From: Candidatus Kerfeldbacteria bacterium
Lineage (GTDB): Bacteria; Patescibacteriota; Patescibacteriia; UBA9570; XYC2-FULL-38-9
NCBI GenBank assembly: GCA_018500015.2
Contig: JAHBAR020000014.1
Span: forward strand, 1 to 48,932
Direction of reading: 5' to 3'
Length of the DNA stretch: 48,932 nucleotides
Positions 1,258-48,615 of the stretch are shown in pieces. The number at the start of each line of letters is the position of its first letter. The first letter of the stretch is position 1. Both the position numbers and the translations under genes were made by a program. The notes below the pieces were generated by a model. That model had not been told where the DNA came from, did not search any database, and saw only the letters and a list, made by a program, of their open reading frames with translations.

Positions 1258-4127
<2,870 letters not shown>

Positions 4128-4200: not shown

Positions 4201-5337
4201 ATGTCATTATTCGGTTCTCATGAGAGTTATCTCGGTATAGACATTGGGAATTCAGCCATTAAAGTGGTTGAATGTGAAAATTTTAAGGGCAAACCAAAGC
4301 TATTAACGTATGGATATGTCGAACAATCGAGCGACATGCTCACATCCAATACGCAAGAGGCAAAAGATGCAATTGTGAAAGCGTTGATAAAGCTTCAAGA
4401 GGCGGCCAAAACCAGCTCACGCAATGCTGTTGCGGCGTTACCGAGCTACACAGTGTTTACCTCTATTATCCGCTTACCCGAGATGCCAAAAAAAGAGTTG
4501 GTTGCTGCTGTACAATGGGAGGCGAAGAAATTTGTACCAATGCCGTTGGAAGAAATGGTTCTTGATTGGAAGATTTTACCTGAACATGAAGTCACCACTG
4601 CTTTTGCAGCCAATCGTAATAGTACCCCAGTGACTATGATGCCGCAGGTGGCACAGCAACAGCAGCAAACCGCAAAAATTGAAGGAGAAAATAAAAAGTA
4701 TTTAAAAATTTTGCTTACTGCAGCTCCAAAAGATTTGGTTGCTCGATACGTCGAAATTTTTCAAGCTGCAAAGCTCAACCTTATCTCCCTTGAAACAGAA
4801 AGTTTTGCGCTCGAACGTTCTTTGATTGGTCGAGACAAATCGGCAATTATGCTTATTGATATTGGCTCTGTTGCAACTACAATAAGCGTTGTTGTTGATG
4901 CTGTTCCGCTTATTAATCGCAGTATTGATACCGGTGGATACACAATCACCAAAGTTATTGCTAGCAGCTTGAATATCGATCTTGATCGTGCTGAGCAATT
5001 TAAACGCGACTTTGGGTTGATGCAAGGAGGTGCAGCTGCAGGTCAAATTCCACAGCGCATCGAAATTCTCATGCAGTCCATTATCAACGAGGTCCGCTAT
5101 GTCCTCAACCTGTATCACAGTCAGGGCAACGGAATGATCGAAAAAATTATTCTTTCTGGTGGTTCGGCATGGTTGCCAAATATCCCACAATACTTTAGTC
5201 AGGTGTTAAACACCAAAGTGTTTATTGGTGATCCATGGGCGCGCATGATGTATCCTGTTGAATTAAAGCCTGTTCTTCAGCAAATTGGACCTCGCTTGGC
5301 AGTCTCTATTGGTTTGGCCATGCGTGAAATTAGCTAA
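4201..5337 (+). CDS. pilM: Type IV pilus assembly protein PilM
   Basis: YLGIDIGNSAIKVVECENF actin-like ATPase start; upstream of pilN/pilO. Confidence 0.92.
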   Translation: MSLFGSHESYLGIDIGNSAIKVVECENFKGKPKLLTYGYVEQSSDMLTSNTQEAKDAIVKALIKLQEAAKTSSRNAVAALPSYTVFTSIIRLPEMPKKELVAAVQWEAKKFVPMPLEEMVLDWKILPEHEVTTAFAANRNSTPVTMMPQVAQQQQQTAKIEGENKKYLKILLTAAPKDLVARYVEIFQAAKLNLISLETESFALERSLIGRDKSAIMLIDIGSVATTISVVVDAVPLINRSIDTGGYTITKVIASSLNIDLDRAEQFKRDFGLMQGGAAAGQIPQRIEILMQSIINEVRYVLNLYHSQGNGMIEKIILSGGSAWLPNIPQYFSQVLNTKVFIGDPWARMMYPVELKPVLQQIGPRLAVSIGLAMREIS

Positions 5338-5343
5338 ATCCAG

Positions 5344-6450
5344 ATGTCTGACAATGTAAATTTCATTCCTGACGATCACCATAAGAAGCCTCAAAAATTT
5401 GAGGAACATATCGAGTACACTGAAGGAGAGAAAAACGAACCGCAGCCGGTAAGCACCTCACTGGTGAATGTTGAGGATGTCGTGAAAAAAACACAATCTT
5501 CTTTTTTGGCATGGCGTATGGCACGTCAAGCCAAACGTGAACAGGTAAAAAAGGAAAAAGAGGAGCGTGAAGCACAAGAGCGCGCTCGTATCATGGCTGA
5601 AGAAAAAGCAAAGGCCGCGCGTACAGCGGTTGAAGAGAAGGCATCTACACAAAAACCACCTATTACTGGGGAAAAACGCAGTGAGCCTGTGCTGAATAAA
5701 AAACCGATCCTTCCGCTTCCTCCTATTTCTCCTGTTGAACGCCCGCATGCGCCAACTATTTCCGCACCTGTTGCTTCGCGCACAGAGCGTCCTCAACCAA
5801 CATCAAAAAAGCAACAAGCGCAAATATTGCCCAACGACCAGATCACATCAGTGAATCTTATCCCTGATTCGTTGATCGAAGATTTAAAGGCGCAAAATCG
5901 TTTACGTGATTTAGGTGTTGTTGCCGGGTTGGTGTGCGTGCTGATTATGACAGCATATTCAGGATTTACGCTCTACGCCCAAAAATTGAATAACGATACA
6001 CACGATATTGTCACCACCATTGGTGAGCTTGACCAACAGATTGCTACCAAAGAAATTTTGCGAAAAGATGCTCAAGCTCAAGCCGACCAGCTTACCGCAG
6101 TGCAAGAGATTGTGAATAGTCATATTGAATGGCTGCCATTTTTTCACTATATAGAACAATGGACATTGCCAACCGTGTTTTATGAAAACGTTTCAGGGTC
6201 TGCAACTTCTGGTGCATTCACTTTTGCCGCCGTCACCTCTGATATTCGCTACGTCACTGAACAGGTTGCTACATTACGTCGCTCTCCTGCTGTACTCTCA
6301 GTAAACACCACATCAGCAACGCAAGCTATCTCTGAACGCACCAACTCAAATACCAACACAACAACATCAACTGTCGTGAATTTTGTATTAACCGTACAGT
6401 TTAAGAGTTCTTTATTTCACGCTGCATCAACGAATGTAAACACACAATAG
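5344..6450 (+). CDS. pilN: PilN-like protein with long charged N-terminal extension
   Basis: Position after pilM; single TM helix (VVAGLVCVLIMTAYSGFTLYAQ) followed by coiled coil. Confidence 0.75.
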   Translation: MSDNVNFIPDDHHKKPQKFEEHIEYTEGEKNEPQPVSTSLVNVEDVVKKTQSSFLAWRMARQAKREQVKKEKEEREAQERARIMAEEKAKAARTAVEEKASTQKPPITGEKRSEPVLNKKPILPLPPISPVERPHAPTISAPVASRTERPQPTSKKQQAQILPNDQITSVNLIPDSLIEDLKAQNRLRDLGVVAGLVCVLIMTAYSGFTLYAQKLNNDTHDIVTTIGELDQQIATKEILRKDAQAQADQLTAVQEIVNSHIEWLPFFHYIEQWTLPTVFYENVSGSATSGAFTFAAVTSDIRYVTEQVATLRRSPAVLSVNTTSATQAISERTNSNTNTTTSTVVNFVLTVQFKSSLFHAASTNVNTQ

Positions 6451-6451
6451 T

Positions 6452-7093
6452 ATGAATTTTTCTTTACATTCTCTTATCTCTGCGCTGAATCTCTGGATTG
6501 CTCGTTATTACTACTGGTGTGCAGCAACTGTATGTATTATATGTGTTCTGTTAGGATGGTTTTTGTTTCTACAACCGCAATATCAAAAAATTCAAGGGGC
6601 AGGATTGGTCGATTTACAGACAGCAAATGCAGAGCTGGTAAAACGCCAAACACAATTAGCGGATTTAGATATGATGCAAAAATCATATGAGTCGCTTAAC
6701 GCCGAGCAACTTCGTCAACTGCACTCCGTGCTCCCTACAGACGTTGATGAGATTTCGCTCCTTGCTTCGTTGCAAGCTTTTGCTGACGCATCACGTGCGA
6801 CCATTTTGAGTATTGATGTGGTATTATCAGGCAATGCAGCTCAAGTTGCACAACAAACTCAGCAGCAGAATGCAAATGAAGCCACAACTTCTCAACCGAT
6901 TGTCTCCAATGAGCATGTGCGTATAGCATATATCACTCTCAATATACGTCCTCTCGACTCTACATATGAGGGCTTTAAACAATTTTTGGCTTCGTTGGAT
7001 CATTTTACCCCGGTGCTGAATTTGCAACAGATGACGTATAGTCCGACAACAACAAGTTATGCGTTGCAGCTTGAGACTTATTACGCTGAATAA
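6452..7093 (+). CDS. pilO: PilO-like protein
   Basis: TM then coiled coil; GFKQFLASLDHFTPVLNLQQM; operon position. Confidence 0.75.
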   Translation: MNFSLHSLISALNLWIARYYYWCAATVCIICVLLGWFLFLQPQYQKIQGAGLVDLQTANAELVKRQTQLADLDMMQKSYESLNAEQLRQLHSVLPTDVDEISLLASLQAFADASRATILSIDVVLSGNAAQVAQQTQQQNANEATTSQPIVSNEHVRIAYITLNIRPLDSTYEGFKQFLASLDHFTPVLNLQQMTYSPTTTSYALQLETYYAE

Positions 7094-43462: not shown

Positions 43463-44245
43463 ATGAAAAAATTCAATGCCTTCCAGTTGAAGATCATTGC
43501 CGTTGTTTTGATGGTTGTAGATCATGTGGCAGAGTTTGCTCAGCCCGCATTGTCAGAGACGGCGTATTACGCTATGCGGTATGCAGGCAGATTGGTCTTT
43601 CCGATTTTTTTATTTTTACTTGTTGAAAGTTTTTTTAACACCTCGCATCAAGGTCGATATGTGCAACGTTTATGGATTTGGGCGTTGGGCATGATGGCGG
43701 GAAGTTACGCATTGATCAGGCTGTGTGATAGCCTGCTTGGGCGCACAGATGCTTTTTATGCACAGGGATATGTTGAATTTGATCGACTGTTTTATGGTGT
43801 GGGTAACAATATTTTTCTTTCGTTAGCTTGTATAGCTACTGTGTTAGTGTGCGTCACTGCATGGAAAAATACGCAGTCCAAGAGTCGATGGCGTATTTTT
43901 TGCACGCTCGCTCCACTACTCGTCGCATTTTTTGTGGTGGAAGGTCGCTACCCGGGGTTGTACATGGCTCTCGCTTTTTTCATATGGCATGGTAAGCCTG
44001 TGCGCCAGTATTTTGCATTTGCATGCGTCGTGGCGATTACAGCTCTAATACATGTTGGCCTTGGTGAAAACATGTTTGTCGCTGACGGATATAACTGGAT
44101 GATGGTTTTTGCCTTGCCACTTATCATGATGTACAACGGTGAGCGTGGACCGCACACTAAAAGCGCAAAATATTTTTTCTATATTTTTTATCCAGCTCAT
44201 CTTTGGATATTGTACATAATCGCTCGTGTTGCTCTGTGGAGGTAG
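43463..44245 (+). CDS. TraX family membrane protein
   Basis: FNAFQLKIIAVVLMVVDHVAEF...AGRLVFPIFLFLLVESFFNT; polytopic; C-terminal KYFFYIFYPAHLWILYI. Confidence 0.85.
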   Translation: MKKFNAFQLKIIAVVLMVVDHVAEFAQPALSETAYYAMRYAGRLVFPIFLFLLVESFFNTSHQGRYVQRLWIWALGMMAGSYALIRLCDSLLGRTDAFYAQGYVEFDRLFYGVGNNIFLSLACIATVLVCVTAWKNTQSKSRWRIFCTLAPLLVAFFVVEGRYPGLYMALAFFIWHGKPVRQYFAFACVVAITALIHVGLGENMFVADGYNWMMVFALPLIMMYNGERGPHTKSAKYFFYIFYPAHLWILYIIARVALWR

Positions 44246-45691: not shown

Positions 45692-45720
45692 TTGCAAACT
45701 TTCTATTTATTTTCTATAAT
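45692..45720 (+). promoter_or_regulatory. Promoter of the LexA-methyltransferase gene
   Basis: TTGCAA-17-TATAAT; ATG begins 8 nt after the -10. Confidence 0.7.
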
Positions 45721-45727: not shown

Positions 45728-47593
45728 ATGCTCACAAAAAAGCAATTACAAGTTCTAAATTTTTTGAAGGATTATAGAGGAAAATACAATTACTCGCCCT
45801 CACTTGAAGAGATAAAACGTAAATTCAAACTTGCCTCGGTTTCTACAGCACATTACTATATAAAAAAACTTCAAGACGCTGGTCAGTTGCAAAAAGAACA
45901 TAATCAGCCCCGCGCTGTTGCGCTTGTCACAGAAAAACAAACAATGGAAATTCCTATTTTAGGAGCAATCGCCGCGGGACAGCCAATTGAAGCAATAGAG
46001 ATTACAGACGAAACTATTACGATCACAAGAGATGAGATTGGAATACAAGGCAAACATTACGCTTTGCGTGTTCAAGGCAACAGTATGATTGACGAGGGTA
46101 TTTTTGACGGCGATATTGTGGTCATACGAAAGCAGGAAGTCGCAGAAAATGGACAAACCGTTGTTGCAGTGATTGATGATAACGAAGCAACGCTGAAAAA
46201 ACTATACCGAGAGAATGGGAAATTCAGATTGCAACCAGCTAACCCAACATTGTTTCCAATATATCGTGATGAAGTAGAGGTTAGAGGTGTTGTTGTAAAA
46301 ATAATCCGTAATTTTGAATCACAACTTGATCAAGTACAATCAAGAGATGAAAAATATATTCGTAAAATAGATTACTCATGGGATTATCGTGGAGAAAAGA
46401 CAAAATCCTACACACATGGAATACACACTTATCCTGCCATGTTCATTCCGCAAGTCGGACGAAGATTATTGGAAACTTACAGCAAAAAAGGCGACACCAT
46501 TTGTGATATTTTCTGTGGTTCTGGGACGGCTTTAGTTGAAAGCAGATTGATAGGGAGAAATGCCTATGGCATTGATCTTAATCCATTGGCTATTTTTCTT
46601 GCTCATGCAAAGACTACACCAATTAACCCTCAAAAACTAACAAAGGAATACTTAGCGTTACTGGATAGAGTGGAAAAGGTAAAAGATAATGAAATTAAAA
46701 GACCAGATTTTAAGAATATTGATTTTTGGTTCAAGGACAAAGTGATTGTTAAACTTGCGAAATTGAAAAAAGCAATTCGCGAAATAAAAGATAAGCCAAT
46801 ACAAAATTTCTTAATGGTTGCGTTTAGTGAAACAGTTCGCTACTCCTCAAATACAAAAACAGGAGAGTTTAAATTGGTGCGTGTGAAAGGAGAAAAGCTT
46901 GATAAGCATGATCCGGATGTAATTAGAATTTTCCGTAAAAATGCAGAGAAAAATATTAAAAGTATGACCGAGTTTTATAAGGACGCAAACAAGGATTCAT
47001 GGACGAAAATAATTTATGGAGACTCATCAAAAGATAGTGGAATAAAAGTAAATTCTATTGACTGCATTATCACTTCTCCTCCATATGGAGACAGTCGAAC
47101 AACTGTTGCTTACGGGCAATTTTCTCGTCTTTCGGCACAATGGATTGATGTATTTGATAATCCAAATGATGCTGCTGGAGTAGATAATGAATTGCTTGGC
47201 GGTAGAGCTGCCAAAAACCTAACTCACACACTCTTGTCTGATTATCTAAAGGAATCACTTGAGAAAATATCTAAACAAGATGAAGCAAGAGCTAGAGATG
47301 TATTAAGTTTTTACATAGGATTGAACGATTGTCTTAAACAAGCTTACGCAATATTGAAATCAAAAAAGTATTTTTGTCTTGTTGTAGGCAATAGATTGGT
47401 AAAACAAGTCAGAATACCAACGGATTTTATTATTGCTGAGTTAGCGGAAAAAATTGGTTTTACTTGTGAAGATATAATTGTCCGTAATATTCCAGGAAAA
47501 AGAATGCCGATCAAAAATTCCCCGACAAATATCATAGGTGTCTTGGAAGAAACAATGAACAAGGAGAGTATTGTTGTATTGAGAAAAAATTAG
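45728..47593 (+). CDS. LexA repressor (winged HTH + S24 autoprotease) fused to DNA methyltransferase
   Basis: LexA HTH; cleavage site GAIAAGQP; catalytic GNSMIDEGIFDGD and EATLKKLY; then motif I CDIFCGSGTALVES and motif IV ITSPPYGD. ATG 45728 preferred to TTG 45692. Confidence 0.92.
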   Translation: MLTKKQLQVLNFLKDYRGKYNYSPSLEEIKRKFKLASVSTAHYYIKKLQDAGQLQKEHNQPRAVALVTEKQTMEIPILGAIAAGQPIEAIEITDETITITRDEIGIQGKHYALRVQGNSMIDEGIFDGDIVVIRKQEVAENGQTVVAVIDDNEATLKKLYRENGKFRLQPANPTLFPIYRDEVEVRGVVVKIIRNFESQLDQVQSRDEKYIRKIDYSWDYRGEKTKSYTHGIHTYPAMFIPQVGRRLLETYSKKGDTICDIFCGSGTALVESRLIGRNAYGIDLNPLAIFLAHAKTTPINPQKLTKEYLALLDRVEKVKDNEIKRPDFKNIDFWFKDKVIVKLAKLKKAIREIKDKPIQNFLMVAFSETVRYSSNTKTGEFKLVRVKGEKLDKHDPDVIRIFRKNAEKNIKSMTEFYKDANKDSWTKIIYGDSSKDSGIKVNSIDCIITSPPYGDSRTTVAYGQFSRLSAQWIDVFDNPNDAAGVDNELLGGRAAKNLTHTLLSDYLKESLEKISKQDEARARDVLSFYIGLNDCLKQAYAILKSKKYFCLVVGNRLVKQVRIPTDFIIAELAEKIGFTCEDIIVRNIPGKRMPIKNSPTNIIGVLEETMNKESIVVLRKN

Positions 47594-48291
47594 TTTAACT
47601 CAACTTTTGTGTCAAAGCATTTATACAACTGGTTAATTTTTACTCGAAAACCAGTGCCGTGATTACGAACAGAACCATTCGCACGATAGAACATTCTAAA
47701 ATCAACAACAATAGCATCCTTTTTGATCATATTTTTGAAATGCTCAAAATCAAAGCCTTCCAAGAAATACGTTTGATTGAAATGAAAATGTTCAACACCT
47801 CTTATTTCTTTACTGTCCGCTAACGCATAAACAAGCGCAGGAAGTTTTGCTGCAAACTTTTTCCTCAAATCCTCCATACTCCAATAGATATTTAGACGCT
47901 TGCCTTTACCGACAACCCTAACCTTATCTTTTTCGACCTTCAATTTTAATCCTTGATTATTGTATCGTTTACATGAAAGAGTGCTGTGTAATTCTTTTGA
48001 GCGACCGTTGTCTCTTTTTGAATATCCAAAGTTATCAAGAAGTGTCCTGTCTCGATCTCCACCTTTCGGCTGGGGCTCTAGTGTAAAAAGAGTGAGCATT
48101 GACCCAGCACTACGGCGATATGCTTTAAGTTCCGCCACCTCACCAATATCGGGAAGCGGGATATTGTTTTCCTTAATACCGAGCAAGTCCTCAAGCGTTT
48201 TTCCTATTCCGGTATCACCCTTTCTGTGTGATTTAACAAAACCGAGAGACTTTATATTTTTGAGCTTCTTTTTGAGTTCAGAAAGTTTCAT
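47590..48291 (-). CDS. MvaI/BcnI-family restriction endonuclease
   Basis: GDTGIGKTLEDLLGIKENNIPLPDIGEVAELKAYRRSAGSMLTLFTLEP, recalled as the MvaI/BcnI signature; adjacent to a methyltransferase. Confidence 0.85.
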   Translation of the reverse strand: MKLSELKKKLKNIKSLGFVKSHRKGDTGIGKTLEDLLGIKENNIPLPDIGEVAELKAYRRSAGSMLTLFTLEPQPKGGDRDRTLLDNFGYSKRDNGRSKELHSTLSCKRYNNQGLKLKVEKDKVRVVGKGKRLNIYWSMEDLRKKFAAKLPALVYALADSKEIRGVEHFHFNQTYFLEGFDFEHFKNMIKKDAIVVDFRMFYRANGSVRNHGTGFRVKINQLYKCFDTKVELN

Positions 48292-48292
48292 A

Positions 48293-48514
48293 TTATTTTA
48301 TGAAAAAAGATAAGTCTTTTTTATAGATTTTTGCAAATTCTTTGAGTTGAGTTATATCAAGTCGTCTTTGCCCAGCTTCAATTTTTGATACATGGGGTTG
48401 GGTTTTGCCGAGTAGCTTTGCTACATCGGCTTGATCCAAACCTACCTCAATGCGAGCTTTCTTTAGTTGTTCGACCGTATATTTATGGTCTTTTGAAAAT
48501 ATTGCTTTGGTCAT
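48293..48514 (-). CDS. XRE-family HTH protein, likely R-M controller (C protein)
   Basis: TVEQLKKARIEVGLDQADVAKLLGKTQPHVSKIEAGQRRLD; 1 bp upstream of the REase start. Confidence 0.85.
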   Translation of the reverse strand: MTKAIFSKDHKYTVEQLKKARIEVGLDQADVAKLLGKTQPHVSKIEAGQRRLDITQLKEFAKIYKKDLSFFIK

Positions 48515-48533
48515 AATGTATATATGATAGTAT

Positions 48534-48563
48534 TCCGTTGTGTTATATTCCAATTTGTTATAT
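48534..48563 (-). promoter_or_regulatory. Tandem 15-bp direct repeats upstream of the XRE gene, candidate operator
   Basis: Minus strand ATATAACAAATTGGA / ATATAACACAACGGA, 12/15 identical and adjacent. Confidence 0.45.
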
Positions 48564-48615
48564 GATGTAGTCATGATAACGGCGAGGTGCGCGTCATTGA
48601 TCGTCAGGATTCATT

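Follow-up and report, generated by a model that had tools for sequence, protein, structure and literature searches.

The window (the whole 48,932-nucleotide stretch of Candidatus Kerfeldbacteria DNA analysed here) carries close to one end a gene that joins a LexA repressor to a DNA methyltransferase, together with a convergent gene for a restriction endonuclease and a small regulatory gene. The main features of this module are the following.

45728..47593, + strand: LexA-methyltransferase fusion gene, 621 aa, starting with ATG at 45728, in a single uninterrupted frame
45731..45916, + strand: LexA winged helix-turn-helix (HTH), aa 2-63 (Pfam), with Y43 and K47 in its recognition helix
45953..46297, + strand: Peptidase S24 domain, aa 76-190 (Pfam; AlphaFold/Foldseek likeness to LexA structures)
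46316..46363, + strand: linker, aa 197-212, variable in sequence among relatives and of low confidence in the AlphaFold model
46364..47590, + strand: methyltransferase domain, aa 213-621 (PADLOC and Pfam), with FCGSGT at 46511-46528 and TSPPY at 47072-47086
47590..48291, - strand: MvaI/BcnI-type restriction endonuclease, 233 aa (PF15515, E 7e-54; R.MvaI structure, E 4e-23)
48293..48574, - strand: small XRE-type HTH regulator, upstream of the endonuclease gene (HTH_3, E 1.5e-13); the true start may be the ATG at 48514

Positions 45728-47593 encode a complete LexA that runs in frame into an N4-type DNA methyltransferase. The NCBIfam lexA equivalog TIGR00498 matches aa 2-196 with 176.9 bits, against a cut-off of 110.95, and Pfam recognizes both LexA_DNA_bind (aa 2-63, E 3e-10) and Peptidase_S24 (aa 76-190, E 1.5e-29). 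The C-terminal part matches the Pfam family N6_N4_Mtase (E 1e-19) and, over aa 206-620, the PADLOC type II MTase model (438.7 bits). TSPPY is an N4-cytosine-like motif of the SPPY type, and the N4 assignment is a prediction from motif and family. The top PDB match is the T. maritima LexA (E 7e-31). In the AlphaFold model (mean pLDDT 78), a folded winged HTH, an S24 domain and a methyltransferase fold are present, with a low-confidence linker at about aa 196-225, and Foldseek places LexA structures at the top of the matches to this model, including LexA on the RecA filament (8trg and 8gms). These domain searches and this model bear out a sequence-only reading of the same DNA, which had proposed a full LexA fused to a methyltransferase as a single polypeptide and had suggested such checks, along with a survey of domain co-occurrence. 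Its placement of TSPPY was exact, and that of FCGSGT (46507-46527) was a few bases off.

The same reading had seen no methionine start near the junction. The first start-like in-frame codon beyond it is indeed the ATG at 46439 (aa 238), which falls within the conserved motif HTYPAMF, and a separate methyltransferase start at the junction is therefore ruled out. Relatives of the methyltransferase were sought in a scan of 84,980 species, which returned 67; the LexA head is in frame in 62 of these, a contig end truncates two more, and the remaining three are unfused. Comparison of the window gene with its relatives also indicates that purifying selection spans the junction. A draft genome of 48 contigs, with the fusion gene near a contig end, might raise the suspicion of a pair of overlapping genes, a frameshift or a false join in the assembly, but the recurrence of the in-frame fusion at so many independent loci excludes an assembly error, and with a junction devoid of a start codon and under purifying selection the probability of any such artefact is negligible.

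The endonuclease gene is convergent to the fusion gene and overlaps its end by four bases. The XRE gene adjoins the endonuclease gene in at least 17 of 50 related loci. Fusion, MvaI/BcnI-type endonuclease and XRE regulator together therefore constitute a type II restriction-modification (R-M) system of the MvaI/BcnI family. As in the R.MvaI and R.BcnI systems (CCWGG and CCSGG, respectively), a PF15515 endonuclease stands beside an N4-type methyltransferase. As in C-protein R-M systems, the endonuclease gene is directly preceded by that of a small XRE-type regulator; the window module differs from these in that its methyltransferase bears a second, separate regulator fused to it. The sequence-only reading had recognized the fusion and had missed the convergent endonuclease, the XRE gene, the genome's housekeeping LexA and the wide spread of the head over methyltransferase families. 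About 1.5 kb ahead of the module lies a gene for a TraX-family membrane protein (window positions 43463-44245, + strand).

The specificity of the system is probably CCWGG, with N4-methylcytosine as product. Over 328 kb of the window genome, CCWGG occurs 141 times against 251 expected (0.56), the strongest depletion among 32 comparable five-base palindromes, while CCSGG is undepleted in the same 328 kb (1.22 of expected). The relatives G003 and G004 give 0.92 and 1.11 of the expected CCWGG count, and depletion is mild in other genomes that carry the fusion (0.78-0.89). The depletion fits past CCWGG restriction in the lineage of the window and is no proof of specificity. G001, considered as a carrier-free control, was set aside on account of a near-identical head fragment at one of its contig ends. 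Within the window alone, CCWGG occurs 8 times against 34 expected, a stronger depletion than the remaining contigs sampled from this genome show. GCWGC is strongly depleted in G003 (0.26) and G069 (0.24), a trace of another restriction specificity.

The same arrangement of fusion, endonuclease and XRE genes occurs amid different neighbour genes in three genomes of the same class and other families (G069, G077 and G102), so the module behaves as a mobile R-M cassette. The 67 methyltransferase relatives extend over many Patescibacteria lineages, with further records labelled Omnitrophota, Bdellovibrio and Deltaproteobacteria, assignments that depend on the binning of metagenome-assembled genomes. 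All genomes compared are draft or metagenome assemblies, and the survey counts are lower bounds. Among methyltransferases 88-91% identical to that of the window, those of L063 and L065 and those of L064, L067 and L069 stand beside endonucleases of clearly different subfamilies (about 450 versus 130 bits to the group of the window endonuclease), suggesting exchange of the nuclease beside a conserved methyltransferase. Two other MvaI-type fusions (L114:2943-4723 and L120:3365-5168) show a frame change in the methyltransferase domain, owing to decay or sequencing error. A Selenomonas relative of the MvaI-type methyltransferase (L125:3350-5365, + strand) is devoid of a LexA head and has an N-terminal extension with DPPY, as if two methyltransferases had been joined.

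The architecture extends well beyond this methyltransferase family. When 381 genomes of the class were surveyed for LexA, many of the matches proved to lie within frames of 440-900 aa, and every such frame fetched encodes a LexA-methyltransferase; at least 24 of the 381 genomes carry one, the relatives of the window methyltransferase counted in. None of the long-frame LexA genes fetched from this survey joins LexA to another type of enzyme, and four frames of 324-342 aa are unfused LexAs. The heads are joined to at least five methyltransferase types, with Pfam partner families that comprise 5mC (DNA_methylase), D12, N6_N4 beta-type and N6_Mtase/Eco57I/TaqI_C enzymes. Convergent or tandem neighbours of the fusions match the ScaI, TaqI, BglII, MutH, HNH and endonuclease VII families. 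G069 holds, for example, a second fusion of another type (L043 / L185:3792-5297, + strand) beside a ScaI-family endonuclease gene (5292-5885, - strand). In viral contigs, the window methyltransferase as query finds no relative, and the head as query finds one fusion (L197) and three unfused heads; the phage and plasmid records searched contain no full-length fusion. A viral origin of the fusion was rejected on these grounds.

In a tree of 103 LexA domains (quick search, midpoint rooting), the fused heads of all methyltransferase types form one group (SH-aLRT 99), apart from the housekeeping LexAs. The window genome has a separate housekeeping LexA, 35% identical to the head, which falls outside this group. 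Changes of methyltransferase label on the head tree imply that the partners have been swapped several times. Three unfused LexAs within the fused-head group adjoin methyltransferase-like genes, one overlapping a downstream 5mC gene and two divergent. The overlapping pair represents a split version of the architecture: on L118, a stand-alone LexA of the fused-head clade (5090-5716, + strand) overlaps with its end the start of a 5mC methyltransferase gene (5706-6581, + strand), and the pair shares its contig with an MvaI-type fusion. Other unfused heads of this clade (L137, L144, L196, L198 and L199, three of them on viral contigs) each occur together with a conserved gene that encodes about 270 aa and perhaps belong to a mobile element in which the head acts as repressor.

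The region just upstream of the fusion gene has the elements of a promoter and a predicted operator.

45692..45697, + strand: -35-like hexamer TTGCAA, 17 bp ahead of TATAAT; relatives show matching geometry
45701..45717, + strand: predicted operator of the head, TTCTAT-N5-TTCTAT with 11-bp spacing (TTCTATTTATTTTCTAT), between -35 and -10
45715..45720, + strand: -10-like hexamer TATAAT, with the ATG starting 7 bases on

With so short a distance from the -10 element to the ATG, the transcript probably has almost no leader. Among 64 non-redundant upstream regions of fusions, 51 contain an exact direct repeat of 6 bases with 11-bp spacing (shuffled sequences: mean 1.9, maximum 4) and 13 do not, and the other spacings from 7 to 20 remain at background in the same set. 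A sigma-70-like promoter, sought with a simple pattern, overlaps the repeat in 40 of 66 repeat-bearing fused upstreams. Unfused LexA genes of the same bacteria also use the 11-bp spacing (20/35), with TTCGG half-sites. A palindromic candidate operator, TTTTCTATAATAGAAAA, lies ahead of the ATG in the window and is not kept in relatives, in which the 11-bp direct repeat is the conserved feature.

The class of half-site (TTCTA or TTCGG/A) is best predicted, among all positions of the head and over 88 sequences, by residues 43 (Y/F/H or E/Q; 0.83 bit) and 47 (K or other; 0.80 bit), both located in the recognition helix. When relatedness is allowed for, this co-variation falls short of significance because only two well-supported independent contrasts are available, both of which agree with it. 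A scan of the window genome for the window-type operator returns the promoter of the fusion gene and one exact match within a coding region, and no others. The scan yields no multi-gene SOS regulon for the fusion head, and the idea of the head as a second master regulator of SOS was rejected on this basis. Sites of the TTCGG type lie beside the housekeeping lexA and a few further loci of this genome. Upstream of the endonuclease genes of related loci, 11-bp repeats are generally absent, and an XRE gene is often found there.

The head most likely acts chiefly on the promoter of its own gene, and there is a high probability, judging from the sequence, that the fusion represses its own transcription. 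Methyltransferases that do so through an N-terminal HTH are known, namely EcoRII, SsoII and Ecl18kI (PMC12707154, PMC3874152). M.EcoRII, M.SsoII and M.Ecl18kI resemble the fusion in having an N-terminal DNA-binding domain on a type II methyltransferase and a site that overlaps the methyltransferase promoter (PMC12707154, PMC3874152), the site of the fusion being predicted. Their repressor domain is a simple HTH devoid of a sensor, whereas that of the fusion is a complete LexA with intact cleavage site and S24 dyad, and unlike theirs it is common to 5mC, N4C and N6A enzymes. This precedent and the operator-like repeats at the gene's own promoter would also suit a plain autorepressor, in which the LexA head is a module for DNA binding and dimerization that sets the level of methyltransferase and self-cleavage is physiologically idle. 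The conservation of the cleavage apparatus speaks against such idleness.

45974..45979, + strand: scissile Ala83-Gly84, invariant in 89 of 89 fused heads examined
46082..46084, + strand: catalytic Ser119, invariant in 89 of 89 fused heads examined
46196..46198, + strand: catalytic Lys157, invariant in all 88 fused heads with a readable residue at this point, the head of G001 having a gap of N there

The cleavage site and the serine had been located at these positions by the sequence-only reading. A plain autorepressor could do without the Ala-Gly site and without the Ser/Lys dyad, but every one of the 88 assessable heads, on at least five methyltransferase types, retains both. The maintenance of the dyad across methyltransferases that otherwise share nothing argues that cutting is functionally important. 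In comparisons of the window gene with its relatives, the S24 domain is the slowest-changing part of the protein, below the rate of the methyltransferase, and the HTH and linker diverge faster than the methyltransferase; these are amino-acid rates alone, dN/dS ratios having been rejected because synonymous sites are near saturation. RecA is encoded in 12 of 13 genomes that carry the fusion, the window genome included. An idle cleavage site is accordingly an unlikely explanation, and on the evidence of these residues the head is very likely able to cleave itself.

The reading that we consider probable is that of an autorepressing methyltransferase that loses its repressor half by RecA-stimulated self-cleavage, so that damage raises methylation. 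The fusion would be the modification enzyme of an MvaI/BcnI-family type II R-M system and at the same time its own transcriptional repressor. A LexA-like dimer of the head would bind TTCTAT-N5-TTCTAT between the -35 and -10 elements and keep methyltransferase synthesis at a set level. Damage to the chromosome, in particular cutting of under-methylated sites by the cell's own endonuclease, would lead to RecA filaments; these would stimulate the S24 domain to cut at Ala83-Gly84, and the cut would sever the HTH, open the promoter and allow more methyltransferase to be made. The endonuclease gene, with no operator and under its own XRE regulator, would stay uninduced. The net effect would be a shift of the R:M balance towards protection upon damage, a type II counterpart of restriction alleviation. 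It is established that unbalanced type II R-M activity induces SOS (PMC3874152). The architecture, the partner endonuclease, the cleavage residues, the operator-like repeats and the way in which these co-vary with the recognition helix can be read from the DNA; binding, RecA-stimulated cleavage, methyltransferase activity after the cut and the physiological role are what we infer, and a protective feedback role of cleavage in particular seems a reasonable expectation.

The position of the operator bears on what cleavage would achieve. The sequence-only reading had supposed that it frees the enzyme from DNA and so ties modification to the SOS state. The link between R-M and SOS remains plausible, with a conserved cleavage apparatus, but an operator at the gene's own promoter implies that cleavage would act mainly through transcriptional derepression and not through release of DNA-bound enzyme. 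An activity switch, in which the uncut protein is inhibited or held at operators until cleavage yields a free, active methyltransferase, is rather improbable. Cleavage would part the HTH from the S24-methyltransferase portion, and the flexible, variable linker would let the enzyme act separately; however, few molecules could be tethered since the genome has essentially one operator, and the uncut enzyme must methylate the genome of undamaged cells, failing which the endonuclease would kill them.

The fate of the fragments also matters. In E. coli, the LexA fragments are proteolysed after cleavage. If the S24-methyltransferase fragment were unstable, cleavage would lower, not raise, protection. 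Such a loss is the basis of a further, very improbable explanation, a suicide switch by which damaged or infected cells would be cut by their own endonuclease as an abortive defence. The instability of LexA fragments in E. coli and the ability of R-M systems to act as toxin-antitoxin pairs (PMC3874152) are in its favour, but the operator lies on the promoter of the methyltransferase itself, so that cleavage would derepress the antidote, and the endonuclease gene has no operator.

Damage-linked restriction alleviation is known for type I systems, via ClpXP (PMC11109961, PMC12707154). As in our proposal of damage-raised modification, damage makes the EcoKI system less prone to cut the chromosome of its own cell (PMC11109961, PMC12707154). 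EcoKI alleviation destroys the translocating endonuclease subunit, whereas the control predicted for the fusion is exerted on methyltransferase transcription through RecA-stimulated self-cleavage. With plasmid-borne related methyltransferases (40-44% identical), the alignment starts only at about residue 200, and these enzymes are without a LexA head. The sequence-only reading knew of no described system of this architecture, and no description of a LexA-methyltransferase fusion was found in the open-access literature searched.

How type II R-M systems spare their host when methylation lags is an old question. To our knowledge, the known answers (C proteins, HTH-methyltransferases and promoter methylation) sense levels of protein or methylation, not damage. 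If the proposed mechanism is true, the LexA head lets the methyltransferase sense the very damage made by its partner nuclease, and the single substitution S119A should make repression independent of damage. The architecture embraces five or more types of methyltransferase along with several families of nuclease, and it occurs mostly in Patescibacteria, a group in which R-M regulation has received little study. The presence of the same head on many unrelated methyltransferases of these ultra-small bacteria suggests defences with a built-in DNA-damage sensor. The evidence leans, by a modest measure, towards a large unrecognized class of R-M systems, in which heads of one specialized LexA lineage sit on many unrelated methyltransferases and RecA-triggered self-cleavage would raise modification upon self-cutting, i.e. 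type II restriction alleviation. A portable, damage-inducible methyltransferase switch is a possible use.

The fused head shares with the SOS LexA the winged HTH, the S24 domain, the Ala-Gly site, the Ser/Lys dyad and an operator at its own promoter, predicted in the case of the fusion. It differs in being fused to an enzyme, in belonging to a clade separate from the housekeeping LexAs and in having, in the window genome, a promoter operator at its own gene only, against the TTCGG-type sites of the housekeeping LexA. In G069, a divergent S24 repressor (L057:1471-2043, + strand) lies just ahead of a gene resembling Y-family DNA polymerases (2104-3420, + strand), an arrangement like that of an SOS mutagenesis operon.
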